Of a DNA stretch of 64,000 nucleotides, positions 32,367 to 49,105 are shown one piece after another (within the stretch, counting starts at the first letter, position 1; each line of letters starts with the position of its first letter). Under the pieces are notes generated by a model. The model was not told the origin of the DNA. It saw only the letters and a program-made list of their open reading frames with translations, and made no database searches. The DNA comes from Actinacidiphila sp. DG2A-62 (lineage in GTDB: Bacteria; Actinomycetota; Actinomycetes; Streptomycetales; Streptomycetaceae): positions 558,001 through 622,000 of the forward strand of contig NZ_JAYMGI010000002.1 in the NCBI RefSeq assembly GCF_035825295.1, read 5' to 3'. Position numbers and translations under genes: made by a program.

Positions 32367-32573
32367 CCCCGCCGGGCCCCGCCGCGGGACAGCGCTCTCC
32401 CGCACCCGCCGGTCGCTGTCCGCGTACGGGCGATCCGTCGCCGGTCACAGTTCGGCGAGCGCTCCTGACCTGGTCAGACACTCGATCTCTGTTCGTCATC
32501 CGGCGTCTGCCTGGCCGCGCGGGCGGAGGGTTAGCTTCGTTGCGTTTGCGACAACCACCCCGGAAGGACCCTC

Positions 32574-34562
32574 ATGTGCACTCCTGGTGACACGCCGTCA
32601 CACGATCGCACCGGGCAGAGCAGGCGCGGATTCCTGCGCAACGCGGCGCTGGCCGGTGCGGGCGCGGCGGCGGTCGGGGTCGGCGCGACCGCCCTCGGCG
32701 CGACGCCCGCGGCCGCCGAGTCCGCCGCCTCCACCGCCTCCACCGCGTCCGCCGCGTCCGCCGCCGCCCGCAGCGGCGGGACCGGCTCCTGGAAGCCCGA
32801 CGCCACGTCCCTCCAGTTCACCCTGGCCGTCATGCCCGACACCCAGTTCCTGTACTGGGGCAGCCAGGACAGCATCGAGCGGACGCCGCAGGAGGAGTCG
32901 TTCCGCTACATCATCGACAACAGCGGTACGCCCGACAACAACATCGTCTTCATGGTGCACCTCGGCGATCTGACCGAGGACGCGGACCCGTCGTCGTTCG
33001 CGGAGGTCGACAAGGCGTTCGCGCTGCTGGATCGGCACGGCGCCGGGTACAGCGTGCTGGCCGGCAACCACGACGTGAGCGGCGACGACAGCCGCGGCGA
33101 CACGCCGTACCTGCGGACGATGGGCCCGCAGCGGTTCCGCCGCTCCAAGACCTTCGCCGGCGCGGACAAGACGGGCTACAACACCGCGCACATCTTCGAG
33201 GCGGCCGGCCGCTCCTGGCTGGTGCTGGCCCTGGACTGGCGGACCACCGACCAGGGCTTCGCCTGGGCCAACGAGGTCATCAAGGCCCACCCCAGGATGC
33301 CGGTGATCCTCACCTCGCACGACATCGTCGGCTCCCCGTACGATGACAACGTTTTCCCGTACCAGTCGGGCAACCCGGAGAACAACGCGGTGCTCTCCGG
33401 CTACGGGCAGACGGTCTGGGACAAGCTGATCAACGACAACGACCAGATCTTCCTGACCCTCAACGGCCACTACTGGCCGCCCGGGCGCACCACCGCGAAG
33501 AACGCCGCCGGCAACGACGTGCACATGCACATCACCAACTACCAGAACCGCTACTTCGGCGGCGGCGGCATGATCCGGCTCTACCACTTCGACCTGGTCC
33601 GCAACACGATCGACGTCGAGACGATCAACCCGTGGATCCTCGCGCAGGACCCGGAGAGCCGAACCCTGCTGGCCGCCGAGCACGCCCGGATCACCGGCCC
33701 GGTCGACAACTTCTCCGTCGCGATCGACTTCGACCAGCGCTTCTCCGGCTTCGTGCCGATCCCGGTGCGGCCGTCGCGGCCGGCGAGCAAGGAGCTGGTC
33801 AAGGGCACGCTGGCGTACTGGCGCTTCGACGGCCAGGGCGCGCCGGGCACGGCGCTGACCTCGGGCCAGACCGTCCGCGACCTGTCGGGCCGGGGCAACG
33901 ACCTGACGGTGGTGACCGTGCCGGGCACCGCCGCCGACGCGCTCACCTGGTCCGCCGACCACCACCCCGACCAGCCGGGGCACGCGAGCCTGAAGTTCGT
34001 CGGCGGCCGCAACCCCGTGCACGGCGCGTACCTGACCACGGGGGCGCAGGCGCCGCTGAACGCCGAGACGTTCAGGTCCGGCTACACCATCGAGACGTTC
34101 GTCTCCATGCCGCTGGACTGGGACGCGGGGAACAACGGCTGGGCGTCGATCCTCAGCCGCCGCGGGTCGGCCGGGGCGGCGGGCAAGCACGGCAAGAACA
34201 CCGACCAGGGCGAGCCGCTGGTCCAGCTCGCAATCTCCAACAACGGCCGCGAGCCGCAGTTCAACCACTACCCGCTCAACGACACCTACCCGACGACCAA
34301 CTGGGGCCACGGCCTGGTCGAGTTGAGGTGGTGGCACCTGGCGGTGGTCAACGACGGCCGGTTCACCAAGCTGTACGTCGAGGGCGCGCCGGTCGCCGAC
34401 AACCCGCACCGGCTCTCGCTCGGCCTGACCTCGCTCGGGCTGCCCTGGCTGGTCGGCGGCCACGAGTACGCGGGCGCGGTGGACATCGTCTTCCACGGCA
34501 ACATCGGCGACATCCGGATCGTCGGCCGGCCGCTGTCGCAGCGGGAGTTCCTGACCGCGTAG
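32574..34562 (+). CDS. Tat-exported metallophosphoesterase with C-terminal LamG-like domain
   Basis: 662-residue exported enzyme. The Tat signal is QSRRGFLRNAALAG. The calcineurin-like domain (about residues 80-390) shows the metal ligands in VMPDTQFLYWG, HLGDLTED, LAGNHDVSG, LTSHDIVG and LNGHYWPPG. The C-terminal part (about 410-660) is a concanavalin/LamG-like sandwich (LAYWRFDGQG, GYTIETFVSMPLDW, WWHLAVVNDGRFTKLYVEG), probably binding polysaccharide. Likely a secreted phosphatase or phosphodiesterase acting on cell-wall or extracellular polymers. A GGAAGGA site precedes the ATG. A terminator follows. Confidence 0.88.
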   Translation: MCTPGDTPSHDRTGQSRRGFLRNAALAGAGAAAVGVGATALGATPAAAESAASTASTASAASAAARSGGTGSWKPDATSLQFTLAVMPDTQFLYWGSQDSIERTPQEESFRYIIDNSGTPDNNIVFMVHLGDLTEDADPSSFAEVDKAFALLDRHGAGYSVLAGNHDVSGDDSRGDTPYLRTMGPQRFRRSKTFAGADKTGYNTAHIFEAAGRSWLVLALDWRTTDQGFAWANEVIKAHPRMPVILTSHDIVGSPYDDNVFPYQSGNPENNAVLSGYGQTVWDKLINDNDQIFLTLNGHYWPPGRTTAKNAAGNDVHMHITNYQNRYFGGGGMIRLYHFDLVRNTIDVETINPWILAQDPESRTLLAAEHARITGPVDNFSVAIDFDQRFSGFVPIPVRPSRPASKELVKGTLAYWRFDGQGAPGTALTSGQTVRDLSGRGNDLTVVTVPGTAADALTWSADHHPDQPGHASLKFVGGRNPVHGAYLTTGAQAPLNAETFRSGYTIETFVSMPLDWDAGNNGWASILSRRGSAGAAGKHGKNTDQGEPLVQLAISNNGREPQFNHYPLNDTYPTTNWGHGLVELRWWHLAVVNDGRFTKLYVEGAPVADNPHRLSLGLTSLGLPWLVGGHEYAGAVDIVFHGNIGDIRIVGRPLSQREFLTA

Positions 34563-34589
34563 CACCGGCGGCGCGCCCCCGCCCGACCC

Positions 34590-34619
34590 GTCCGGCCCCG
34601 GCCTTTGCCGGGGCCGGAC
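34590..34619 (+). terminator. Rho-independent-type hairpin after the metallophosphoesterase gene
   Basis: GTCCGGCCCCGGC and GCCGGGGCCGGAC form a perfect 13-bp stem around a CTTT loop, 28 nt after the stop codon. There is no U-tract, which is normal for streptomycete terminators. Confidence 0.8.
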
Positions 34620-34681
34620 CGCGTCTCGGGCGGAGCGCGGTGACCGGACTGCGTCGAACGGGTCACTGTTCCTGCGGCCTG

Positions 34682-34711
34682 TTGACTGGGCGTCACACCT
34701 TGCGTGAGTAT
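34682..34711 (+). promoter_or_regulatory. Promoter of the cysteine-rich peptide gene
   Basis: TTGACT (34682-34687) and GAGTAT (34706-34711) are separated by 18 bp and resemble a housekeeping sigma promoter. The stretch to 34760 is unusually AT-rich for this genome. Predicted transcription start is near 34718, leaving a leader of about 60 nt before the GTG at 34778. Confidence 0.45.
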
Positions 34712-34777
34712 GAAGCCATATGCTCAACTATGTCCCGTTTCACCAATGTTTCGTCCCCGCCGTAGGAGGAATTTTCC

Positions 34778-35044
34778 GTGCTGGACAGCAGTACCGGCCT
34801 CATCGTCAAGCAGCGCAAGGACGCCGGGGCGGCCGATCGGCCGCCCCTGACCGGGAGTTCCTCGCAAGGGGCGTCGCAGCCGCCGCTGGTGGTGTCCCCG
34901 GTCCGGGTGTGCCCGAGTTGCGCGTGCTGCGTGGAGGGCCTGTGCCGGCCCGGGCCGTCGAGCGGCTGCCCCGACGCCGTCGACAGCCGGTGGCCCTACC
35001 CCTGCCCGTGCACCAGCAACACCATGGACGCACCGCTGCCCTGA
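34778..35044 (+). CDS. Cysteine-rich 88-residue peptide, possible precursor peptide
   Basis: Not recognised. The GTG start has an excellent AGGAGGA (34764-34770) 7 nt upstream and a promoter of its own, so expression is credible. The first 40 residues are polar with two Lys/Arg clusters (IVKQRKDAGAADR) and Ser/Gln/Pro. The C-terminal half holds eight cysteines in clusters CPSCACC, GLC, SGC and YPCPC, with many prolines and a tail TSNTMDAPLP. No signal peptide or membrane helix. The leader-plus-Cys-core look suggests a modified-peptide precursor or metal-binding peptide. It is followed after 31 bp by a PPOX-fold gene on the same strand. Confidence 0.65.
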   Translation: MLDSSTGLIVKQRKDAGAADRPPLTGSSSQGASQPPLVVSPVRVCPSCACCVEGLCRPGPSSGCPDAVDSRWPYPCPCTSNTMDAPLP

Positions 35045-35075
35045 CCGGCGGGGCGCGGACGGAAGGAGTACGGCG

Positions 35076-35633
35076 ATGCCGACGAAGGAACCCGCACGCG
35101 AGCCGAGGACCGAACTCGACGCCCGCTACAGCTCCGCGGTCATCCCGCTGCCCGGCGCCGCGGACGCCACCGCGACCCCGTGGGAGCAGGCGCGGCGGCA
35201 GTTGGAGACCGCCGAGGTCTTCTGGGTCTCCACGGTGCGCCCGGACGGCCGGCTGCACGTCACTCCGGTGCTCGCCGCCTGGCTCGACGGCGTCCTCTAC
35301 TTCTCCAGCGGCCCCGGCGAGCAAAAGGCCCGCAACCTGGCGGCCGACGCCCACTGCGCCCTGACCACCGGGGGCAACTTCCTGGCCGAGAGCCTGGACC
35401 TGGTGATCGAGGGCGAGGCCGAGCAGGTCCGCGACCCGGCCCTGCTGGCGGACGTGGCCGCGGCGTACACCGCCAAGTACGGCGCCCACATCACCTCCCC
35501 CGAGGGCGCGTTCCACGGCATCGACGACGCCATGCGCACCGGCGTGTCCACCGTCTACGCGGTCGCTCCCACCACCTCCTACGGCTTCGGCCGCGGCTCC
35601 GGCGCGTTCACCCACACCCGCTGGACCTTCTGA
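35076..35633 (+). CDS. Pyridoxamine 5'-phosphate oxidase-fold flavin/F420-type protein
   Basis: 185-residue split-barrel protein of the PPOX superfamily. The strands EVFWVSTVRPDGRLHVTPV and WLDGVLYFSSGPGEQKARNL are the usual cofactor-binding core, followed by CALTTGG and LVIEGEAEQVRDPALL. It ends with TSYGFGRGSGAFTHTRWTF, as in related actinobacterial pyridoxamine-oxidase-like proteins. GGAAGGAG precedes the ATG. Probably co-transcribed with the cysteine-rich peptide gene. The cofactor (FMN, F420 or heme) and substrate cannot be told from sequence alone. Confidence 0.87.
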   Translation: MPTKEPAREPRTELDARYSSAVIPLPGAADATATPWEQARRQLETAEVFWVSTVRPDGRLHVTPVLAAWLDGVLYFSSGPGEQKARNLAADAHCALTTGGNFLAESLDLVIEGEAEQVRDPALLADVAAAYTAKYGAHITSPEGAFHGIDDAMRTGVSTVYAVAPTTSYGFGRGSGAFTHTRWTF

Positions 35634-35637
35634 CCCC

Positions 35638-35671
35638 CGGCGGCGCCCACCCCACCCGGTGGGCGCCGCCG
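35638..35671. terminator. Bidirectional hairpin between PPOX and GNAT genes
   Basis: A perfect 14-bp stem (arms CGGCGGCGCCCACC and GGTGGGCGCCGCCG) around a 6-nt CCACCC loop starts 5 nt after the PPOX stop. The convergent acetyltransferase gene ends 90 bp to the right, so the hairpin may serve both. Confidence 0.8.
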
Positions 35672-35761
35672 CGTCGGGACCGCCGTGCCGACCGGGCCCC
35701 GTCTCCGGCTCCGGGCCCCGCGTCCGGGTCCGCCCCGGCCCTGATCCCGCTCCCCCGCGCC

Positions 35762-36298
35762 CTACCAGGCCGGCTTCCAGTCCTTGGCGAGCAGCCCGAG
35801 CAGCACCTCGTCGAGGAACGCGCCCATCACCCAGGCCGACTCGTGCAGCACGCCCTCGCGGACGAAGCCGTTGCGCTCGGCGGCGCGCAGCATCGCCGCG
35901 TTGTCCGCGAGGGTCTCGATCTGCAGGCGGTGCAGGCCGCGCACGACGAATCCGTAATGGCACAGCGCCGCCACCACGTCGGTGCCGTAGCCCTTGCCGC
36001 GCGCGGCGGGGAGCAGGCCGAGGCCGACGTGGGCGGCGCGGTGGTGGGTGTCGATGCCCCACAGCGCGGCGGTGCCGACGAGCGTGCCGCCCGCCAGCTC
36101 GACCACGGAGAACAGCACGCGCGAGGGGTCCTTGTCGTCCAGCGCGAGCCGCGGGTCGTCCGCGCCCGGCCCGACCGGCCGCCACGGCGCGCTCTCGGCT
36201 CGCGCGGAGTTCTCCACGTCGTCGTACAGCTCGGTCCGCAGGACCGGCACATCGTCCTCGTGGCGGGCCCTGAGCCCGATCTTGCCGCCTCGTAGCAT
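35762..36298 (-). CDS. GNAT-family N-acetyltransferase (RimJ/RimL-like)
   Basis: 178-residue acetyl-CoA-dependent acetyltransferase. The start GGKIGLRARHEDDVPVL is typical of RimJ/RimL members. The acetyl-CoA loop is VGLGLLPAARGKGYGTDVVAALCHYGF (motif A, Q/RxxGxG/A as ARGKGYG), and motif B is HRLQIETLADNAAMLRAAERNGFVREGVLHE. AGGAAG precedes the ATG. Substrate may be a protein N-terminus, an amino acid or a drug. Confidence 0.88.
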   Translation of the reverse strand: MLRGGKIGLRARHEDDVPVLRTELYDDVENSARAESAPWRPVGPGADDPRLALDDKDPSRVLFSVVELAGGTLVGTAALWGIDTHHRAAHVGLGLLPAARGKGYGTDVVAALCHYGFVVRGLHRLQIETLADNAAMLRAAERNGFVREGVLHESAWVMGAFLDEVLLGLLAKDWKPAW

Positions 36299-39243: not shown

Positions 39244-41085
39244 TCAGGCGAGTTTGAGGGTCGGCCGGTACATGTCGATCCACAGCGCGAGGTCGAGCGC
39301 GCGCTCCAGGCCGCGGCGGGAGGCCTGGGTGGTCTGCGGCGTGTCGTCCCGCACCGCCTCCGCCAGGCGCCGGTGGCTGACGATGCCGAAGACCGGGTGC
39401 GAGGGCTGGGCCAGCACCTCCTGGACGTTGCGGCGCAGCGCGGCCGCGTAGGCCGGGTCCTGGGTGGAGGGGTACGGGCTCTTGACCCGGTCGTAGACCG
39501 AGCGCGGCAGCACGTCGGCGGTCGCCTCGCGCAGCAGGCTCTTCTCGCGGCCGTCGAAGGACTTCAGCGCCCAGGGGGCGTTGTAGACGTACTCCACCAG
39601 TCGGTGGTCGCAGAACGGCACCCGGACCTCCAGGCCGACGGCCATGCTGGCGCGGTCCTTGCGGTCCAGCAGCACCCGGACGAAGCGGGTCAGGTGCAGG
39701 TGGCTGATGGTGCGCATGCGCGACTCCAGGTCGCTCTCCCCCGGCAGCGGGGCGACCTGCGCGGCGGCGGTGGCGTAGCAGTCGCGGACGTAGCCGGCCA
39801 GGTCCAGGCCGCGGGCGGTGTCCTCGGCGAGGATGCCGCCGTCGTCGCCGAAGTGCTTGGCGAAGTTGGTCAGCCAGGGGAAGGTGGTGCCCTTGCGCGC
39901 CTCGGGGTCGAAGAACTGCAGATAGCCGCCGAACACCTCATCGGCGGACTCGCCGGACAGCGCGACGGTGGAGTGCCGGCGGATCTCCCGGAAGAGCAGG
40001 TAGAGCGAGGCGTCCATGTCGCCGAAACCGGCCGGCAGGTCCCTGGCCCTGATCACCGCGGAGCGGATCGCGGGGTCGGCGAGCTGGTCGGAGTCCAGCA
40101 CGATGTCCTGGTGCTCGGTGCCCGCCACGCGGGCCACGTCGTGCACGAAAGGGGTGTCGGGAGTGGTCCGCAGCTCGTCGGCGACGAAGTTCTCCGCCTG
40201 GCCGACGAAGTCCACGGCGAAGCTGCGGACGCGCTCGCCGGTCTCGGCGAGCTGCCGGGCGGCGATCGCGGTCATCGCGGAGGAGTCGAGGCCACCGGAG
40301 AGCAGGGTGCAGCGCGGGACGTCGGCGACGAGCTGGCGGCGCACGATGTCGTCGAGCAGGTCGCGCACATGGGCGATGGTCGCGTCCCGGCCGTCGGTGT
40401 GCGGGCGGGTCTCCAGGGTCCAGTAGGCGCGGGTGCGCGCTCCGGCGCGGCTGACGGTGACGACGGTGCCGGGCACGACCTCGTGCATGCCGTCCCAGAA
40501 CCCGTGCCCGGGCGTCTTGACCATGACCAGCAGCTCGCGCAGCCCGTCGAGGGTGACCGTGCGGGACGCGAGCGGGTTGGCGAGGATCGCCTTGGGCTCG
40601 GAGCCGAACAGCACGCCGTCCGCGGTCGGGTAGTAGTAGAAGGGCTTGATGCCCATGCGGTCGCGGATCATCACCAGCTCGCGGGTGCGCTCGTCCCAGA
40701 TCGCGAAGGCGTACATCCCGTTGAGCCGGGCGGCGACGCCGTCGCCCCACTCCAGGTAGCCGTGCAGCACCACCTCGGTGTCGGAGTCGGTGGTGAAGCG
40801 GTGCCCGCGGCCGGCCAGCTCGGCGCGCAGCTCGGTGTAGTTGTAGGCCTCGCCGGAGTAGACCATGGCCACTGTGCCGTCCGGCGTCCGGACGCTCATC
40901 GGCTGCCGGCCGCCGGGCAGGTCGATCACCGCGAGCCTGCGGTGGCCCAGCGCGGCCGGTCCGCTGATCCAGGTGCCGCTGTCGTCGGGGCCGCGGCACG
41001 ACATCGTCTCCGTCATCGCGTCCACGACCGGCCGCTGGGTGGAGAGGTCGCGCTGGTACGAGACCCATCCGGTGATTCCGCACAT
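39244..41085 (-). CDS. asnB: Glutamine-hydrolysing asparagine synthetase
   Basis: 613-residue enzyme making asparagine from aspartate, glutamine and ATP. Residue C2 (MCGITGWVSY) is the N-terminal nucleophile of the glutaminase domain, with RGPDDSG and GEAYNYTEL as further substrate motifs. The synthetase domain carries the pyrophosphate loop LSGGLDSSAM (about 263-269), SGESADEVFGGY and RMR-type ERDRASMAVGLEVRVPFCDHRLVEY-like block. GGAG precedes the ATG. It stands alone, divergent from vanR, with no VanR-type site on its own side. Confidence 0.92.
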   Translation of the reverse strand: MCGITGWVSYQRDLSTQRPVVDAMTETMSCRGPDDSGTWISGPAALGHRRLAVIDLPGGRQPMSVRTPDGTVAMVYSGEAYNYTELRAELAGRGHRFTTDSDTEVVLHGYLEWGDGVAARLNGMYAFAIWDERTRELVMIRDRMGIKPFYYYPTADGVLFGSEPKAILANPLASRTVTLDGLRELLVMVKTPGHGFWDGMHEVVPGTVVTVSRAGARTRAYWTLETRPHTDGRDATIAHVRDLLDDIVRRQLVADVPRCTLLSGGLDSSAMTAIAARQLAETGERVRSFAVDFVGQAENFVADELRTTPDTPFVHDVARVAGTEHQDIVLDSDQLADPAIRSAVIRARDLPAGFGDMDASLYLLFREIRRHSTVALSGESADEVFGGYLQFFDPEARKGTTFPWLTNFAKHFGDDGGILAEDTARGLDLAGYVRDCYATAAAQVAPLPGESDLESRMRTISHLHLTRFVRVLLDRKDRASMAVGLEVRVPFCDHRLVEYVYNAPWALKSFDGREKSLLREATADVLPRSVYDRVKSPYPSTQDPAYAAALRRNVQEVLAQPSHPVFGIVSHRRLAEAVRDDTPQTTQASRRGLERALDLALWIDMYRPTLKLA

Positions 41086-41636: not shown

Positions 41637-42329
41637 ATGCGTGTGCTGATCGTCGAGGACGAGCCTTATCTGGCGGAAGCCGTACGGGACGGGCTGCGGC
41701 TGGAGGCGATCGCGGCCGACATCGCGGGGGACGGGGACACCGCCCTGGAGCTGCTGGCCGTCAACACCTATGACATCGCCGTCCTCGACCGGGACGTGCC
41801 CGGCCCGTCGGGCGACGAGATCGCCCGGTGGATCGTCGCCTCCGGCAGCGGCATGCCCATCCTGATGCTCACCGCGGCCGACCGGCTGGACGACAAGGCC
41901 TCCGGGTTCGGGCTCGGCGCCGACGACTACCTGACGAAGCCGTTCGACCTGCGGGAGCTGGTGCTGCGGCTGCGGGCGCTGGAGCGCAGGCGTGCGCACA
42001 GCCGGCCGCCGGTGCGGGAGATCGCGGGGCTGCGGCTCGACCCGTTCCGCCGCGAGGTCTACCGGGACGGGCGCTACGTCGCGCTCACCCGCAAGCAGTT
42101 CGCGGTGCTCGACCTCCTGGTGGCGGCCGAGGGCGGCGTCGTCAGCGCCGAGGAGCTGCTGGAACGCGCCTGGGACGAGAACGCCGACCCGTTCACCAAC
42201 GCCGTGCGGATCACCGTCTCGGCGCTGCGCAAGCGCCTGGGCGAGCCCTGGATCATCGCCACCGTGCCCGGCGTCGGCTACCGCATCGACACCGGGCCGG
42301 CCGCCGGGCCCGGCGCCGAGGAGGGGTGA
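41637..42329 (+). CDS. vanR: VanR-type response regulator
   Basis: 230-residue OmpR/PhoB-family activator of vancomycin-resistance genes. The receiver domain has the acidic pair E7-D8, phospho-acceptor D51 (DIAVLDRDVPG), T (LMLTAAD) and K (DDYLTKPF). The winged-helix effector domain covers about residues 128-222 (LDPFRREVYRDGRYVALTRKQFAVLDLL, IATVPGVGYRID). The ATG fits a leaderless transcript. It is 7 bp from vanS and 1.2 kb from vanX, so assignment to the van system is firm by context and motif. Confidence 0.92.
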   Translation: MRVLIVEDEPYLAEAVRDGLRLEAIAADIAGDGDTALELLAVNTYDIAVLDRDVPGPSGDEIARWIVASGSGMPILMLTAADRLDDKASGFGLGADDYLTKPFDLRELVLRLRALERRRAHSRPPVREIAGLRLDPFRREVYRDGRYVALTRKQFAVLDLLVAAEGGVVSAEELLERAWDENADPFTNAVRITVSALRKRLGEPWIIATVPGVGYRIDTGPAAGPGAEEG

Positions 42330-42336
42330 CGCGGCC

Positions 42337-43419
42337 GTGGACAGGCAGCCGGGCCTGAGCGTCCGCCTCAAACTCACCCTCAGCTACGCGGGCTTCCTCG
42401 TGTTCGCCGGCTTCGTGCTGCTCGCCGTCATGTGGATCTCGCTGCTCTACCGCGTCCACCCGGGGCTGATCGTCGTCGTGGAGAGCCACCGGGCCCTGCT
42501 GCGCCAGTTCGGCCCGACCACGCTCTTCGTGATGGTGTTCCTGCTGCTGTTCGGGCTGATCGGCGGCTGGTTCCTGGCCGGCCGGATGCTGGCCCCGCTC
42601 ACCCACATCACGGACGCCACCCGCCGGGCCGCCGAGGGGTCGCTCTCGCACCGCATCCGGCTGCCGGGCCCCACCGACGAGTTCCGCGAACTCGCCGACG
42701 CCTTCGACACGATGCTCGCGCGCCTGGAGGCGCACGACGCCGAGCAGCAGCGGTTCGCCGCCAACGCCTCGCACGAGCTGCGCACCCCGCTGGCGATCTC
42801 GCAGACCCTCCTCGACGTGGCCCGCCGCGACCCGGGCCACGACCACGGCGAGCTGATCGAGCGCCTGCACACCGTCAACGCGCGGGCGATCGACCTCACC
42901 GAGGCGCTCCTGGTGCTCAGCCGCGCCGACCGCGGGTCCTTCCGCCGGGAGCCGGTCGACCTGTCCCTGCTGGCGGAGGAGGCCGCCGAGACGCTGCTGC
43001 CGTTCGCCGAGAAGCGCGGCGTCGCGATCGAGGTGTCCGGACGGGCCGCGCCGGTGCTCGGGTCGCAGCCGCTGCTGCTGCAGTTGGCGACGAACCTCGT
43101 GCACAACGCCGTCGTGCACAACCTGCCGGGCCGCGGCACCGTGTGGGTGGCCACCGACGTGCGCGACGCGGGCGCGGTGCTGACCGTGGAGAACACCGGC
43201 GAGCGGATCGACCCGGGGCTGGCGGCGACGCTCACCGAGCCGTTCCGCCGCGGCACCGACCGCGTCCGCACCGACCACGCGGGCGTCGGCCTGGGCCTGG
43301 CCATCGCCCAGACCATCGCCCACGCGCACGGCGGGACGATCGCCCTCGACCCCCGCCCGGCCGGCGGGCTGCGCGTCGTCGTCACCCTACCCGCGGACCC
43401 CGACCCCGCGCGCCCCTGA
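42337..43419 (+). CDS. vanS: VanS-type sensor histidine kinase
   Basis: 360-residue membrane kinase that senses glycopeptide and sets VanR phosphorylation. Two membrane helices (about residues 16-37 and 62-82) enclose a short external loop of about 25 residues (YRVHPGLIVVVESHRALLRQ), then HAMP (to about 138). The phospho-acceptor is H146 in NASHELRTPLA, and ATPase boxes are NLVHNAVVHN and GVGLGLAIAQTIAHAHGG. The small loop is typical of Streptomyces VanS. GTG start after GAGGAGGGG, 7 bp from vanR, so it is in the same operon. Confidence 0.92.
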   Translation: MDRQPGLSVRLKLTLSYAGFLVFAGFVLLAVMWISLLYRVHPGLIVVVESHRALLRQFGPTTLFVMVFLLLFGLIGGWFLAGRMLAPLTHITDATRRAAEGSLSHRIRLPGPTDEFRELADAFDTMLARLEAHDAEQQRFAANASHELRTPLAISQTLLDVARRDPGHDHGELIERLHTVNARAIDLTEALLVLSRADRGSFRREPVDLSLLAEEAAETLLPFAEKRGVAIEVSGRAAPVLGSQPLLLQLATNLVHNAVVHNLPGRGTVWVATDVRDAGAVLTVENTGERIDPGLAATLTEPFRRGTDRVRTDHAGVGLGLAIAQTIAHAHGGTIALDPRPAGGLRVVVTLPADPDPARP

Positions 43420-43430
43420 CCCCGCCCCCC

Positions 43431-43475
43431 GAGCCGGCCGCCCTCGAGCCGGCCGTCCTTGAGCCGGCCGGCGCC
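43431..43475. repeat. Three 15-bp tandem repeats between vanS and vanX
   Basis: GAGCCGGCCG recurs at 43431, 43446 and 43461 with 5-nt variable ends, giving a 15-bp period. It lies 12 nt after the vanS stop in a 99-bp convergent gap. CGGCCGGCTC-type self-complementarity could help fold a terminator for vanRS and vanHAX, but this is uncertain. Confidence 0.6.
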
Positions 43476-43518
43476 CGCCCGACCGGCGGCGCCGCGCACC
43501 CTCCGGCTCCGTACGCCG

Positions 43519-44127
43519 TCACACGATGGGGAAGTCGAAGTACGTGTCCGGGTACGGCTCGTCCCGCAGCGTGTAGTGCCACCACTCGCTGGCGTACGGG
43601 CTGAAGCCGCTGGCCTCCATCACCGCCCGCAGGTGCTCGCGGTTGCGTTCCTCGGCCCGGGTGATGCCGTGGGCGCCGTGGTGGGAGACGGGGTCCATCA
43701 GGTCGTGGTCGCCGCCCATGGCCGCGAGTTCGCCGCCGGACAGGTGGTAGAGGGTCAGATCGACGGTGCTGCCGCGGCTGTGCCCGGACTTGGCGGCCAC
43801 GTAGCCGTGGTCGAACATCCCGGCGCGGTCGATGTTCGGGTAGTGCCGGAGCTTGGTCCGGCCGTCCTCCGGCAGCCGGGACCAGCGCAGGAAGCAGTCC
43901 ACCGCGCGCTGCGGGCGGTAGGCGTCCCACAGCAGCAGGCCGAAGCCGCGCGCGGCGGCCTCCTCCCGCGCTCGTTCCAGGGCCGCGCACAGCGCCCGCG
44001 TGCCGACGACCCGGTTGGCCAGGTAGCCGTCCACCGGCTTCCCGGTGAAGTTGTCCCAGGTGGCGTACTTGGCGTCCCACCGCACCCCGGGCAGACACGC
44101 GTCGATGAAGACGAAGTCCTCGTTCAC
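43519..44127 (-). CDS. vanX: D-Ala-D-Ala dipeptidase VanX
   Basis: 202-residue zinc dipeptidase that destroys D-Ala-D-Ala so that only D-Ala-D-Lac enters the wall. Zinc ligands H116, D123 (SGHSRGSTVD) and H184, base E181 (SEWWHY) and R71 (WDAYRP) occur at the same numbers as in enterococcal VanX. The GTG start overlaps the vanA stop (GTGA), so the last gene of vanHAX is translationally coupled. Cytoplasmic. No missing catalytic residues. Confidence 0.95.
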   Translation of the reverse strand: MNEDFVFIDACLPGVRWDAKYATWDNFTGKPVDGYLANRVVGTRALCAALERAREEAAARGFGLLLWDAYRPQRAVDCFLRWSRLPEDGRTKLRHYPNIDRAGMFDHGYVAAKSGHSRGSTVDLTLYHLSGGELAAMGGDHDLMDPVSHHGAHGITRAEERNREHLRAVMEASGFSPYASEWWHYTLRDEPYPDTYFDFPIV

Positions 44128-45197
44128 CGCGCCGCCCCGTCCCGCGGGCCGGGGGCCTGCGCCCGGCGCAGCGCCTGCCGCAGCATCCGGTCGACCAGGG
44201 CGGACATCGGCAGCCCGGCCGCCGCCATCATCCGCGGGTAGCGGCTGTAGGAGGTCATCCCCGGCAGGGTGTTGACCTCGTTGAGGACCACCCGGCCGTC
44301 GGGGGTGAGGAACATGTCCACCCGTGCCAGCCCCCGGCACCCCAGCGCGCGGTACACCGCCTTGGCCGTCTCCTGGACGAGTTCGCGCGCGCGGTCGGGG
44401 ATGTCCGCGGGCACGATCGGCGTGGAGTTCTCCGAACCGCTCTCCGGCGCGCTCTCCTGGTGGATCCTGAAGAAGCCGTGGGACAGCGCGATGTGGTCCA
44501 CCTCGCCGACGAACAGCTCCGGCTCGTCGCCGAGGACCGCGCAGCCGACCTCGCTGCCGGCCACGGCCCGCTCGATCAGCACCTTGGTGTCGTACCGCCG
44601 CGCGGCCTCCAGCGCGGCCGGCAGCTCCTCCTCCCGGTCGACCTTGGTGACGCCGAACGACGAGCCCGAGCGGGCCGGCTTCACGAAGACGGGGTACGTC
44701 AGCCGGTCGGCCTCGACCTTCCCGCCGTCGGACACGGTCCAGAACTCCGGCGTGGCGATGCCGGCGCTCCGCGCGACGGTGTAGGCGAGGGACTTGTCCA
44801 TGCACAGCGCGGAACTCTGGACGTCGCAGCCGACGTAGGGGATGCCGGACAGCTCCAGCAGCCCCTGCACCGCGCCGTCCTCGCCGAGCCTGCCGTGCAG
44901 CACGGGCAGCACCACGTCGAGCGGGACCGTCCCGTACCGCCCCTGTTCGAAGACCAGGAGTCCGCGCACCCCGCGGTCCGGCGACAGCACGGCCGGGCGG
45001 CCGTTGCCGTCCTCCCAGCCGGGGTCGGGTCCGTCGCAGAGCTTCCAGACGCCGTCCCGGGTGATGCCGACGTAGAACGGCTCGTACGCCCCCGTGTCCA
45101 GGCTCGCGGCGATCTCCCGTGCCGACTTGACGGAGACGGGGTGCTCCTCGGAGCACCCTCCGAAGAGGATGCCGACCTTGGGCCTGTCCATGCTCAT
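44124..45197 (-). CDS. vanA: D-alanine-D-lactate ligase VanA
   Basis: 357-residue ATP-grasp ligase. N-terminal ILFGGCSEEHPVSVKSA, central lid CMDKSLAYTVARSAGI, KPARSGSSFGVTKV and C-terminal NEVNTLPGMTSYSRYP are family motifs. The lactate-specific loop has FFRIHQE with the His that defines D-Ala-D-Lac ligases (VanA/VanB type) instead of the Tyr/Phe of Ddl. ATG overlaps the vanH stop (ATGA) and the TGA overlaps vanX's start. It would produce the depsipeptide that glycopeptides cannot bind. Confidence 0.94.
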   Translation of the reverse strand: MSMDRPKVGILFGGCSEEHPVSVKSAREIAASLDTGAYEPFYVGITRDGVWKLCDGPDPGWEDGNGRPAVLSPDRGVRGLLVFEQGRYGTVPLDVVLPVLHGRLGEDGAVQGLLELSGIPYVGCDVQSSALCMDKSLAYTVARSAGIATPEFWTVSDGGKVEADRLTYPVFVKPARSGSSFGVTKVDREEELPAALEAARRYDTKVLIERAVAGSEVGCAVLGDEPELFVGEVDHIALSHGFFRIHQESAPESGSENSTPIVPADIPDRARELVQETAKAVYRALGCRGLARVDMFLTPDGRVVLNEVNTLPGMTSYSRYPRMMAAAGLPMSALVDRMLRQALRRAQAPGPRDGAAR

Positions 45198-46183
45198 GTC
45201 GCTCGTGTCCTGCTTTCGTGGTCGCTTCGGTGGTGGAGGCAGTTGGCGAGGGAGTTCTCGACCATGTCGCGCAGCGCGCGGTCGGTGTAGTAGGCGGTGT
45301 GCGGGGTGATCAGCACGTTCGGCAGCTTCTGCAGGCGCAGCAGCGGTTCGCCGGCGGCGGGTCCGGCTCTGCGGTCGGCGTAGAAGACGCCTTCCTCGCC
45401 CTCGACCACGTCCAGCGCCGCGCCGCCCAGCCGGCCGCTCTCCAGCGCGGCGATGAGGGCGTCGGTGTCGACGAGCGGGCCGCGACCGGTGTTGACGAGG
45501 TACGCGCCCGGCTTCATCAATGCGATCCGCCGCCGGTCCAGCAGGTGGCGGGTCTCCGCGGTGAGCGGGGTGTGCAGCGTCACGATGTCGCTCAGCCGCA
45601 GCAGTTCGTCCAGCGGCACGTGCTCGGCGGCGATCCTGGGACGCCGGTCGTGGGCGAGGAGCCGGCAGCCGAAGCCGCGCAGCCGGTCCGCGACCGCCGC
45701 GCCGATCCGGCCGGTCCCGACGATCCCGACGGTCAGGTCGCGCAGTTCCCTGCCGCGGGCCTCGGGCAGCCGGTAGTCGTGGTCGTCCACCCGGCGGACC
45801 GTGGACTGCGCGTTGCGGACCGACATCAGCATGAGCATGAGCGTGTGGTCGGCCACGCTGTCGGGCGAATAGGAGACGTTCTCCACCGCGATGCCGATGC
45901 GCTCGGCGTAGGCGACGTCGATGTGGTCGCGGCCGACGCTCCTGGTGGAGACGTACTCCACTCCGGCTTGTCTGAGTGCGCGCAGGACGGCGGCGGTGAG
46001 GCGCGCCTGGTGGCCGACGCTCACGCACCGGCTGCCGGCCGCCAGAGCGGCCGTGGCCTCGGAGGGCGCGGTGTGCGTGACGGTCACCGCGACGCCGGAC
46101 TCCGCGGCCGCCCGCCGGAACAGCGCGGCCTCGTCCGGCCCGCACCCGTAGGCGGTGATGCGCGGTGGTTCGCTGGGGGACAT
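45194..46183 (-). CDS. vanH: D-lactate dehydrogenase VanH
   Basis: 329-residue D-2-hydroxyacid dehydrogenase reducing pyruvate to D-lactate for VanA. NAD-binding motif VGIVGTGRIGAAVADRL; catalytic residues in VNTGRGPLVDTD (Arg), DVVEGEEGVFY (Glu) and LITPHTAYYTDRA (His). ATG 46183 is chosen over an in-frame TTG at 46195 because the upstream regulatory element is then exactly 32 nt away, as before vanK. No ribosome site is visible, consistent with a leaderless mRNA. First gene of vanHAX. Confidence 0.93.
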   Translation of the reverse strand: MSPSEPPRITAYGCGPDEAALFRRAAAESGVAVTVTHTAPSEATAALAAGSRCVSVGHQARLTAAVLRALRQAGVEYVSTRSVGRDHIDVAYAERIGIAVENVSYSPDSVADHTLMLMLMSVRNAQSTVRRVDDHDYRLPEARGRELRDLTVGIVGTGRIGAAVADRLRGFGCRLLAHDRRPRIAAEHVPLDELLRLSDIVTLHTPLTAETRHLLDRRRIALMKPGAYLVNTGRGPLVDTDALIAALESGRLGGAALDVVEGEEGVFYADRRAGPAAGEPLLRLQKLPNVLITPHTAYYTDRALRDMVENSLANCLHHRSDHESRTRAT

Positions 46184-46193
46184 GCGCCCAGTC

Positions 46194-46246
46194 AATGCCG
46201 TGTGCTGTTGCGGTCGCGTATGCGGATTCCGATATGCCGCCCATAC
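46194..46246 (-). promoter_or_regulatory. VanR-type element and promoter of vanHAX
   Basis: A 31-bp element (46216-46246) matches the vanK element at 26 of 31 positions. Reading toward vanH, half-sites GTATGGGCGGC, ATATCGGAATC and CGCATACGCGA occur every 11 bp. A GGCATT -10-like hexamer (46194-46199) ends 10 nt before the ATG. This is the expected layout for an OmpR-family activator beside a weak -35 region. Confidence 0.7.
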
Positions 46247-46266
46247 ATTACTCGCGGGTAATATAT
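46243..46266. promoter_or_regulatory. 24-bp near-perfect palindrome between vanH and murF-like gene
   Basis: Arms ATACATTAC (46243-46251) and GTAATATAT (46258-46266) are complementary at 8 of 9 positions around a TCGCGG centre. Its left end overlaps the VanR element and its right end contains TAATAT, a possible -10 box for the murF-like gene. It may bind a second, unidentified dimeric regulator. Confidence 0.5.
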
Positions 46267-46317
46267 GGTCCTCCTATCGAATTCCGCTTATCCGCCGGAA
46301 ACAGGGCGCCGTTTTGA

Positions 46318-47696
46318 ATGGCGGACGTGACCTCCAACGAATCGACGTCCGTCCGCATCGCCCTTTCCCTCCGCGAGATCGCCGCGATCACCGGCGGGAG
46401 GGTCGAGGGCGACAGTTCCGTGACGGTGACCGGGCCGGCCGTGCTCGACGGCAGGAAGGCCGAACCCGGCGGGCTCTTCGTGGCCTTCGCCGGTGAGCGC
46501 ACCGACGGTCACGACCACGCGGCCCAGGCCGGCCGGCCGGCGCGGTGGCGGTGCTCGGCTCGCGCCCCACCGCGCTGCCCACCGTGGTCGTCACCGACAC
46601 CAGGGCCGCGCTCCAGGCGCTCGCCGCCCATGTGGTGGCGCGGCTGCGCGGCGGCCTGACCGTCGCCGCGCTGACCGGCTCCTCGGGCAAGACCGGCACC
46701 AAGGACCTGCTGGCCGCGGTGCTGGCCGGCGCCGCGCCGACGGTCGCCACCGCCGGCTCCTTCAACAACGAGCTGGGCGTGCCGCTGACCATGCTGCGCG
46801 CGAGCCCGGCCACCCGGTTCCTGGTGCTGGAGATGGGCGCGCGGCACGTCGGCGACATCGCCCGGCTCACCGGACTGGTCGCGCCGGACATCGCCGTCGT
46901 CCTCAACGTCGGCCGGGCGCACATCGGCGAGTTCGGCTCGCGCGAGGCCATCGCCCGGGCCAAGGGCGAGCTGGTGCGGGGGCTCGCGCCCGGCGGCACC
47001 GCGGTGCTGTGCGCGGACGACCCGCGGGTGGCGGCGATGCGGTCGCTCACACACGGCCCGGTGCTGACCTTCGGCCGCTCGCCCGAGGCCGACGTACGGG
47101 TGCTCGGGCTGGAGCAGGACCGGCTCGGCCGGCCGTCGTTCGCCCTGCGCGCGGCCGGCGCCACCGCCCATGTCGCGCTGCCGCTGGTGGGGGCCCACCA
47201 GGCGGTCAACGCGGCGGCCGCCGCGGCGGCGGCCCTGGCGGCCGGTGTGCCGCTGGACGCGGCCGCGGCGGCGCTGTCCACCGCCACGCTGTCCGGACGG
47301 CGGCTGGAGGTGCGCGACCTCGCCTGCGGCGCGACGCTGCTCGACGACTCCTACAACGCCAACCCCGACTCCACCCGCGCCGCGCTGGACGCGCTGGCCG
47401 CGGTCGAGGGCGGGCGGCGCATCGCCGTCCTCGGCGCGATGCTCGAACTGGGCGACACCGGCGAGGCCGAGCACCGCGCCGCCGGCGCGTACGCCGCCGC
47501 CCGCGCCGACGTGGTGGCCGCGGTCGGCGAGGGCGCGCGGGCGGTCGCGGACGGCGCGGCAGGACGCGGGCTGTTCCTCGCCGACAACGGCGCGGCCGCG
47601 GCGTGGCTGCGCGGCGAGGTCGCGGCCGGCGACGTGGTGCTCGTCAAGGCGTCGCGCGGCGCCCGCCTGGACGAGGTCGCCGCGGCGCTCGCGTAG
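46318..47696 (+). pseudogene. murF: MurF-like ligase (murF2) with a single frameshift
   Basis: UDP-MurNAc-tripeptide:dipeptide ligase family, expected here to attach D-Ala-D-Lac. Reading begins [26 protein letters not shown] with the N-terminal substrate fold ([20 protein letters not shown]), then shifts by one base at about 46530-46540. The second frame carries the ATP loop [51 protein letters not shown] and [19 protein letters not shown]. The break sits in a GGCCGGCCGGCCGG tract and one added G restores a complete protein of about 459 residues. It is divergent from vanH, as a specialised second MurF. Confidence 0.8.
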
Positions 47697-47810
47697 GGCG
47701 TGCGTGCGGCTGCGGGGCCGAGCCGGCCCGGGCGGGCCTACGCGGACCCGCGCCGGGCCGGTCGCGGGGGTTCGACGCGGGGAGGACCGCCGCGCGCCCG
47801 CCGCTCCAGC

Positions 47811-47870
47811 AGGCGCGGCGGCTCAGCAGGCGCCGCCGGCAGGCGCGGCGGCTCAGCGGGCGCCGCGGCT
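47811..47870. repeat. Two 30-bp tandem repeats between murF-like and vanK genes
   Basis: Units at 47811-47840 and 47841-47870 share AGGCGCGGCGGCTCAGC and differ at a few positions. The second unit includes the first base of the vanK stop codon. A third partial copy begins CGGCGGCTCAGC-like further left. No gene is seen in the 173-bp gap. Confidence 0.55.
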
Positions 47871-49105
47871 CAGCGGCTGCGGCGGCCCGCCTTCGCGCGG
47901 TGCCGCATGTAGAGGTCGAACGCCTGGTAGACCCGCGGCCGCAGCGGCAGGTCCCACTCGCCCGCGTACCGCACGGCCCGGCCGCCGGTGCCGACCTTGA
48001 ACTGGATCAGCCCGACGTGCGGATCGTCCGCGTCGAGGGTGGGCGTGATCCCGCGCAGGTCGTAGACGTCGCAGCCGGCCGCGAGCGCGTCGCGGATCAT
48101 CGCCCACTGGCACGCGTTGGAACCGCGCACCTCGCGCTTGTGCGTGGAGGAGGCGCCGTACGTGTACCAGGCGTGGGCGCCGACCCGCACCAGGACGGTG
48201 GCGGCGACCGGGTCGCCCTGGTGGCGGGCGAGGTACAGCCTGATCCGCGCGGGGTCCTCGGCGCTCATCGCCGCGAACATCGTCTCGAAGTACCGCAGCG
48301 GCCGGGGCGTGAAGCGGTCGCGCGCGGCGGTGTGGAGGTAGAGGTCGTGGAACTCCTTCAGCTCCGCGCCGCTCGGGACCGCGCCGCCCCCGGCGACCGT
48401 GACCTCGACGCCGGCCTTCGCCGCCTTCTTGACGTTGCGTCGCCACAGCTGGTTCATGCCGCCGAGCACCTCGTCCTCGGTCCGGCCGGCCAGCGGCAGT
48501 TCGTACGTGAACTGCGGCTGGCCGGCGCCGAATCCGTCCTCCGGGCTCTGCGGCAGCCAGCCCGCCGCCGCGAGGTGGGCGGCCACCCGGGCGCCGGCCG
48601 GGTCGCCGGCGCCACCGGGCAGGTCGGTGAGCCGCTCGACCGCGGGGTCGGCGATGCCCTCCTTGACCTGGGCGGCGCTCCAGACGTGCGTGCGCACCGG
48701 CGGTCCGAGCCGGATCGCGAACGCGCCGTGCGCCTTGAGGCGGGCCGCCAGCGGGCCGAGCCACGCGCCGAGGTCGCCGGCCCAGTCGATGGCCGGGCCC
48801 TGCGGCAGGTAGGCGAGCGTGAAGCGCTCCAGCCGGGGCACCGGCCGGTGCAGCACCAGCCCCGCGCCCACCAGCCGGCCGCCGTCGTACCAGCCGAGGG
48901 ACTCGCTGCGCCACTCGGTCTTGACCCGCCCCCACCCGGGCGTCTGCAGGAAGCTCACCGAGCGCCGCGCCCGTACGAACGCCAGGTGCTCGGCGGCGCT
49001 GATCGGCTCCACCCTCAGCCCCGCGCCTCCGCCGGGCTCCCCGGCCCTCCCCGTCCCAGGTCCCGCACCCACGCGCACTCCACCGCCGACCTCGCCGTTG
49101 ACCAT
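47870..49105 (-). CDS. vanK: FemX-type aminoacyltransferase VanK
   Basis: 411-residue Fem-family (GNAT-like) transferase that uses aminoacyl-tRNA to add the bridge residue (glycine in S. coelicolor VanK) to D-Lac-ended stem peptides. Characteristic blocks are SFLQTPGWGRVKTEWRSE, AYLPQGPAIDW, MNQLWRRNVKKAAKAGVEV, WYTYGASSTHKREVRGSNACQWAMI and CDVYDLRGITPTL. ATG 49105 is supported by the element exactly 32 nt upstream. It ends with a basic tail. Homologous housekeeping FemX may exist elsewhere; the VanR-type site is the reason for the vanK name. Confidence 0.88.
   Translation of the reverse strand: MVNGEVGGGVRVGAGPGTGRAGEPGGGAGLRVEPISAAEHLAFVRARRSVSFLQTPGWGRVKTEWRSESLGWYDGGRLVGAGLVLHRPVPRLERFTLAYLPQGPAIDWAGDLGAWLGPLAARLKAHGAFAIRLGPPVRTHVWSAAQVKEGIADPAVERLTDLPGGAGDPAGARVAAHLAAAGWLPQSPEDGFGAGQPQFTYELPLAGRTEDEVLGGMNQLWRRNVKKAAKAGVEVTVAGGGAVPSGAELKEFHDLYLHTAARDRFTPRPLRYFETMFAAMSAEDPARIRLYLARHQGDPVAATVLVRVGAHAWYTYGASSTHKREVRGSNACQWAMIRDALAAGCDVYDLRGITPTLDADDPHVGLIQFKVGTGGRAVRYAGEWDLPLRPRVYQAFDLYMRHRAKAGRRSR

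Follow-up and report, generated by a model that had tools for sequence, protein, structure and literature searches.

The locus considered here raises the question of what is encoded by a short, cysteine-rich open reading frame (ORF) at positions 34778–35044 (forward strand) of the 64,000-nucleotide stretch of Actinacidiphila sp. DG2A-62 DNA that was analysed (the window). A preliminary description, made from the letters of the DNA, had suggested a new type of modified or metal-binding peptide with a PPOX-fold partner. Most of what that description said of the gene itself proved accurate. The ORF encodes 88 amino acids (MLDSSTGLIVKQRKDAGAADRPPLTGSSSQGASQPPLVVSPVRVCPSCACCVEGLCRPGPSSGCPDAVDSRWPYPCPCTSNTMDAPLP) between a GTG start and a TGA stop, all eight cysteines lie in the C-terminal half and include the motifs CPSCACC and YPCPC, and a near-perfect ribosome-binding site, AGGAGG at 34764–34769 (forward strand), is located 8 nt 5' of the GTG, a placement found for only 6 of the 1514 plus-strand ATG or GTG codons in the window. 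Because an in-frame TAG lies just 5' of the GTG, separated from it by four non-start codons, GTG 34778 is the most upstream start possible. The third-position G+C content (GC3) of the ORF is 0.93 in frame, compared with 0.64 and 0.67 in the two other frames. Given how often Cys occurs in the window's predicted genes, eight Cys in 34 residues has a binomial probability of 7e-11; that density is reached by 2 of the 388 stop-to-stop frames of at least 50 codons in the window, the mini-protein included, so that density alone is little proof, and it is conservation that provides the proof. The ORF at 34778–35044 is a genuine gene.

That conservation was established by searching 394 family genomes, 35 of them of the same genus, with single sequences and with profiles, which gave seven clear carriers: the window genome and G007, G019, G020, G021, and G022 within the genus (6 of 35 genomes, counting the window genome), and one Streptomyces genome, G311. 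A search for homologues with conserved Cys spacing and gene order had been proposed at the outset; six homologues were found with every Cys kept, and no neighbour is fixed across their loci. The eight Cys together with G59, P60, G63, P65, and P77 are invariant in all seven proteins, and the homologues keep the pattern C-x2-C-x-CC-x4-C-x2-GP-x2-GCP...CPC. In the window copy this corresponds to an eight-Cys domain from C45 to C78 (34910–35011, forward strand; Cx2CxCCx4Cx2GPx2GCPx11CPC), which is marked out by the invariant columns, by dN/dS, and by a Cys order common to the phage/ICE domain described below. Among the five same-genus homologues (ten pairs), dN is 0.00–0.12 and dS is 0.16–1.12 over the 37-codon Cys region, and the corresponding values for the window and G311 copies are 0.21 and 0.59; strong purifying selection acts on the Cys half. 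At the DNA level the window and G311 copies resemble each other only in 34906–35044 (77% identity over 139 bases), a segment that begins shortly ahead of the first Cys codon and runs to the stop. The N-terminal 44 residues (34778–34909, forward strand) are indeed polar, as first described, but both the alignment and the DNA similarity show them to be unconserved, which is unlike a leader: the N-terminal halves of the window protein, the G311 protein, and the other five cannot be aligned, and their lengths differ by sub-group.

The five same-genus homologues have a GTG-started version of 58–61 amino acids, and the DNA around those five starts is conserved; G022 differs in length by one base immediately 5' of its GTG. 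A block of about 20 bp around GGTATCCAGTCCACTGTGG, which directly precedes and spans the GTG, is conserved in L004, L005, L006, L052, and L053, and this block is mostly kept even in the different locus of G022. By eye there is no good Shine–Dalgarno sequence at these starts, and therefore those copies may be leaderless or have an operator there. The surroundings of the gene are of several kinds. The homologues of G007, G019, G020, and G021 occupy one shared region with an adjoining 2'-5' RNA ligase-type gene (assigned with Pfam for the G021 copy and by eye for the others), and in three of the four a PHB-depolymerase-like gene, recognized by eye, flanks the opposite side (small called ORFs intervene in G007; G019 is the one without it). 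The G022 region has in common with these four the peptide and, about 9.6 kb from it, a single gene, and may be a rearranged version of the shared region. The G311 copy is among unrelated genes, including a P450 fragment about 6 kb away, and the locus of the window copy differs again from the shared region, from that of G022, and from that of G311. No mobile-element gene was recognized adjoining the window copy.

The mini-protein is rare among the genomes searched. One of the family searches gave matches at E ≤ 0.001 in 16 genomes, with the Cys pattern present in five (G000, G007, G020, G022, and G311) and absent in eleven. The profile search at E ≤ 0.01 matched 15 genomes, comprising the seven clear carriers (E ≤ 1e-18), G018 with a phage-type protein, and seven without the pattern; a second profile match in G022 also lacks it. 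Two further sets that overlap, 392 genomes from G311's genus and 394 from the class, each gave eight genomes at E ≤ 0.01, one of them already known; neither yielded a new member, and the other matches that were fetched all lack the Cys pattern. The peptide profile had no match in viral contigs, and plasmid and phage records yielded no match either. A search of genome contigs gave two loci, apparently the G311 and G020 copies already known. The original statement that it belongs to no known family held in each library searched: Pfam and NCBIfam (no family at E up to 1), PHROGs (no match at E up to 10), and PADLOC (no match at E up to 0.1). Among PDB sequences there were only two matches, both at chance level (E 0.44 and 4.8). 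Word searches of the literature found no title on such a protein, within the limits of searches by word, which cannot show that nothing is in print. The protein is thus real, rare, and conserved, with no named family in the searched libraries, and it represents one more conserved, uncharacterised family, with eight Cys, among the many unknown small proteins encoded by Streptomyces relatives.

A lead to its nature came from the phage-type protein of G018, which the peptide profile matched with a per-genome E-value of 0.008 (no longer significant when 394 genomes are searched) and which is the sole one of nine weak matches with all eight Cys in the same order. It has 234 amino acids, and its N-terminus reads CPHCGCCTEDLCQRGRNRIVQCAG...GCPC. 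Relatives of its first 81 residues are found in six of the 35 genus genomes at E ≤ 0.01 (with one weak partial match), and the window genome has two phage-type copies, C2:3922001-3922243 (229 amino acids) and C2:3767696-3767923 (135 amino acids). Gene product 63 of phage TurkishDelight, a ‘hypothetical protein’, is a relative known only as a tblastn match over 90% of the protein, and one Streptomyces plasmid record has a relative whose coordinates are the same place as the G023 copy. Relatives are also present in ten IMG/VR contigs, two of them in short versions of 99 and 118 amino acids with starts set by our own choice. A combined profile matched 17 of 277 family genomes at E ≤ 0.01, 14 with the pattern and three (G014, G054, and G100) without. 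Two of the proteins stand alone, one of 87 amino acids in G078 beside DUF2637 and DUF6907 genes and one of 74 amino acids in G196 near DUF6879 and DUF5753 genes, and both regions look ICE-like as read from the neighbour genes. With Pfam, RNase_T was assigned upstream of the phage-type gene in G023; in G012 the gene has RecT upstream and RusA downstream, and RusA follows it in G128 as well. Its other neighbours were assigned by eye. The phage-type family as a whole (L063-L067, L069-L077, L115, and L117) consists mostly of proteins of about 230 amino acids near exonuclease, RecT, and RusA genes. No family was found for four members in Pfam and two in NCBIfam, and PHROGs gave one weak match (E 0.06) for a phage-type protein.

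The phage/ICE module, defined here by 20 sequences, and the mini-protein share one Cys scaffold. The ~230-residue Streptomyces phage and prophage-type proteins have the same order of eight Cys, with an identical Cx2CxCCx4C start and a CPC end, and all eight Cys and the Pro of CPC are invariant in 14 of 14 aligned rows (Cx2CxCCx4C ... C ... CPC). In those proteins the Cys domain is N-terminal and is followed by winged-helix-like and OB-like parts, whereas the mini-protein stands alone; they have GRxxxxxC where it has GPxxGCP, and the spacing is x9/x14 in most phage copies versus x7/x11 in the mini-protein. The proteins of the ICE-like islands (G078 and G196) and of the viral contigs resemble the mini-protein in being small and stand-alone with the same Cys order, but they are on apparent mobile elements beside DUF2637/DUF6879-type genes, of a kind that was not recognized next to the window copy. 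An hhalign comparison of the seven peptides with 14 phage-type domains gave a score of 31.5 (Prob 90), which was reached by 0 of 200 fully column-shuffled controls, 0 of 200 controls in which the Cys were moved, and 2 of 200 in which the Cys were fixed. With an HMM built from the 20 mobile-element domains and free of the peptides, and with the composition correction off, the seven peptides rank 1 to 7 of the 1907 ORFs of the window and the six homologue regions, with E-values of 2.3e-5 to 0.014 for 200,000 ORFs (6.7e-5 for the window protein). The HMMER composition correction penalises Cys-rich sequences, and with it on the E-values for 200,000 ORFs are 2.2–3.1 for G311, 21 for the window, 69 for G019, and 250 for G022, with an unrelated ORF appearing at 6.4. 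Among 1000 shuffles that kept the Cys fixed, the real score was equalled or exceeded without the correction by 16 for the window, 4 for G311, 46 for G019, and 113 for G022, and with the correction by 24, 9, 88, and 167, respectively; the corrected counts for plain shuffles were 1, 0 (of 999), 2, and 6 of 1000 in the same order. Because Cys-fixed shuffles can reach the real score, it is chiefly the order and spacing of the Cys that speak for common descent of the mini-protein and the phage module, which in our judgement is likely.

Based on these comparisons, we put forward with moderate confidence the reading that the window gene encodes a cytoplasmic, metal-folded eight-Cys mini-protein that is a stand-alone member, or a close look-alike, of the phage/ICE module. 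Specifically, the C-terminal ~35 residues would form an eight-Cys domain that folds around metal in two four-Cys sites, zinc being the most likely occupant. The same module would serve as the N-terminal domain of a ~230-residue Streptomyces phage protein encoded in or near recombination genes, and ICE-like islands and some viral contigs would carry it as small stand-alone proteins (about 74–118 amino acids). By analogy, the mini-protein may act as a small nucleic-acid- or protein-binding accessory and not as a secreted modified peptide. A cytoplasmic location is suggested by the peptides themselves, in which no signal-peptide-like stretch was seen by eye, and by the presence of the related domain in phage-type proteins whose genes stand among those for recombination. 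Eight conserved Cys in the reducing cytoplasm would then most simply be metal ligands; hence metal binding, like the choice of zinc, is what we infer. Of the two halves of the original suggestion, a new Cys-rich protein stands, borne out by six homologues, whereas a precursor does not fit a leader-like half that is unconserved, a core that is constrained, and a Cys order that recurs in phage-type proteins. The Cys scaffold links the mini-protein to a phage and conjugative-island domain that is nameless in the searched libraries.

Structure models bear on this proposal mainly through the phage-type protein. AlphaFold2 gave the mini-protein a mean pLDDT of 47 and no confident fold; a pLDDT this low is seen both with mini-domains organised by metal and with disordered peptides. 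The phage-type protein was modelled with a mean pLDDT of 78, with only 53–67 for its Cys domain. Its model suggests a MarR-like winged helix at about residues 75–138 (Z at most 7.6) and a cold-shock/OB-like barrel at about residues 138–217 (Z at most 6.9; best Foldseek E 0.025), Z values that by the tool's own note are in the range of common arrangements. The Foldseek and VIA-align matches lie mostly in residues 74–217, and they barely cover the Cys domain, below the level that shows a fold. A nucleic-acid-binding role of the phage-type protein is, on these models, only a lead. A bolder extension of our proposal, which we regard as unlikely, is that a zinc-binding module moved by Streptomyces phages and conjugative islands for recombination or transfer may have been taken over as a chromosomal eight-Cys modulator (a decoy, partner, or regulator) of these elements' nucleic-acid machinery; the window gene would then be one host copy, in a genome with two phage-type copies besides.

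The alternative that survives best is that the scaffold is convergent, so that the mini-protein would be a true metal-binding or metallothionein-like protein with no common origin with the phage/ICE module. It draws on the same statistics, in that Cys-fixed shuffles reach the real score in 0.4–11% of cases uncorrected and 0.9–17% corrected (2 of 200 with hhalign), and on the GPxxGCP motif, which is absent from the phage domain, similarity beyond the Cys being modest. It has to contend with the exact Cx2CxCCx4C start and CPC end in all 14 aligned rows, with the failure of every one of the 200 Cys-moved controls, and with the top seven places among 1907 ORFs in the uncorrected search. Bacterial metallothioneins are, like the mini-protein as proposed here, small, cytoplasmic, and Cys-rich, but it has no Pfam or NCBIfam match at E up to 1, and the Cys patterns of BmtA/SmtA and MymT differ from its own; a metallothionein of a known family is excluded only at the level of the models. 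Convergence is in our judgement a possible if rather doubtful explanation, and common descent is what we infer in its place.

The second alternative turns on the downstream gene. As described from the outset, the mini-protein gene ends 31 bp before the ATG (35076) of a split-barrel gene at 35076–35633 (forward strand), which has a ribosome-binding site AAGGAG at 35063–35068 (forward strand) and encodes a PPOX-class protein of 185 amino acids. The protein is a member of PF01243 (E 5.8e-18; score 65.8 against a cut-off of 28.1). Its best NCBIfam match is TIGR03618, the Rv1155-type F420-dependent PPOX-class family, yet the score of 59.6 bits is below that model's cut-off of 79.05 bits. The two genes are flanked by G+C-rich stems found by an inverted-repeat search: a perfect 13-bp repeat with a 4-nt loop at 34590–34619, a candidate terminator-like stem after the preceding LamG-domain gene, and a perfect 14-bp repeat with a 6-nt loop at 35638–35671, a terminator-like stem after the PPOX gene. 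A scan for T-run terminators found a T-run in neither, and no inverted repeat of at least 9 nt is present in the 31-bp gap. The flanking stems and the stem-free gap make a single bicistronic transcript of the mini-protein and PPOX genes plausible. A promoter of its own, which the preliminary description had assigned to the mini-protein gene, was not recovered, as a sigma-70 consensus scan of 34540–35800 gave 0 sites; Streptomyces promoters are often missed by that consensus, and by eye TTGACT is present, with the next TATGAA 21 nt away.

On this arrangement could be built a RiPP precursor, with a leader and a modified Cys-rich core, the PPOX protein as or with the modifying flavin/F420 enzyme, and export of the product. 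Actinobacterial RiPP precursors, which include lanthipeptides, FxLD, and thioamitides, are similar to the mini-protein in size and in their Cys-rich C-terminus, and the small size, polar N-terminal half, Cys/Pro-rich C-terminal half, lack of a known family, and plausible co-transcription with a redox-type gene all agree with such a precursor, as do an asparagine-synthase-domain gene (39244–41085) and an ATP-grasp ligase gene (44124–45197) in the window and the P450 fragment about 6 kb from the G311 copy. The asparagine-synthase and ATP-grasp domains are also used by some RiPP pathways, and lasso cyclases have an asparagine-synthase domain. However, a conserved leader and an enzyme that travels with the precursor are expected, and neither was seen in the loci read. 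The alignment of the window protein, the G311 protein, and the other five contains no conserved leader or recognition region, since the leader-like half varies in length by sub-group and the core is the constrained part. No YcaO, LanM/LanB, radical SAM, or similar enzyme was found with Pfam among the 18 neighbour genes in the window (27795–49012), in agreement with the earlier remark that no canonical RiPP enzyme is nearby, or among nine genes near G311; the neighbour genes of the other five homologues were read by eye, except one, and no conserved modifying enzyme emerged. The asparagine synthase resembles an ordinary AsnB in that its glutaminase domain is complete, the ATP-grasp ligase appears to belong to a van-type cluster, and the Cys order recurs inside ~230-residue phage-type proteins.

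The PPOX partnership itself was rejected looking both ways, from six peptide regions and from eight PPOX loci: among the loci examined the pairing exists only in this genome. In tblastn searches the window PPOX protein found no convincing counterpart in the six homologue regions of ~20 kb (best E 0.034). PPOX relatives at E ≤ 1e-10 occur in 21 of the 35 genus genomes, the window genome included, and seven genus genomes besides that of the window have one at 63–70% identity. Eight PPOX loci of 9–10 kb, six of these close ones (G001, G002, G004, G005, G013, and G024) and the more distant G014 and G022, have no small Cys-rich gene before the PPOX gene and lack the Cys pattern; in the seventh close one (G016) the start of the PPOX gene is 125 bp from the end of its contig, which leaves the preceding DNA unreadable. 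In G022, which has the peptide together with a distant PPOX, the two are on separate contigs. The PPOX gene is probably an accidental, co-transcribed neighbour, and nothing found points to a new PPOX-dependent RiPP pathway, which removes a false lead; we consider a RiPP precursor improbable. The PPOX gene is one that is often relocated, and six of the seven loci at 63–70% identity have mostly different neighbours, two of them with an L31-like ribosomal protein gene adjoining, by eye.

Far less probable still is a Cys-responsive leader peptide, that is, an attenuator-type upstream ORF controlling the gene that follows. Such leaders are known in actinobacteria, and polycysteine short ORFs have been described as attenuator-type leaders in mycobacteria; the ORF here is short and Cys-rich, with the next gene 31 bp on. 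An attenuator would be expected to have a fixed downstream target gene, which is absent: the homologues have no common downstream gene, and a conserved position before a regulated (sulfur) gene is not seen. In addition, Gly, Pro, and Cys are all conserved under strong dN/dS constraint, the window copy has a good Shine–Dalgarno sequence and is not leaderless, PPOX is not a gene of cysteine metabolism, and Rfam gave no match in the region at E up to 0.5. Finally, a chance ORF without a product, for which its absence from every annotated family could be cited, can practically be dismissed in view of the GC3 of 0.93, the good Shine–Dalgarno sequence, the purifying selection, and the homologues in unrelated flanks.

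It should be noted that the surroundings of the two genes have features of their own. Upstream, the gene for a secreted LamG-domain protein (32400–34562) has counterparts in nine genus mates with 82–89% protein identity, and in some of them the similarity continues 5' of the gene for as much as ~170 bp; behind it, different genes are called among the nine, and its 3' side looks like a recombination-prone boundary. Insertion of the peptide and PPOX genes as a cassette was considered and set aside, as no empty site could be defined with different genes behind the LamG gene in the nine genomes. Downstream, response regulator, sensor kinase, VanX-type D-Ala-D-Ala dipeptidase, D-Ala-D-Ala-type ligase, VanH-type 2-hydroxyacid dehydrogenase, Mur ligase, and FemAB genes lie together at 41637–49012 (Pfam), and, judged from this predicted gene content, they look like an actinomycete vanHAX-type cluster for glycopeptide resistance.
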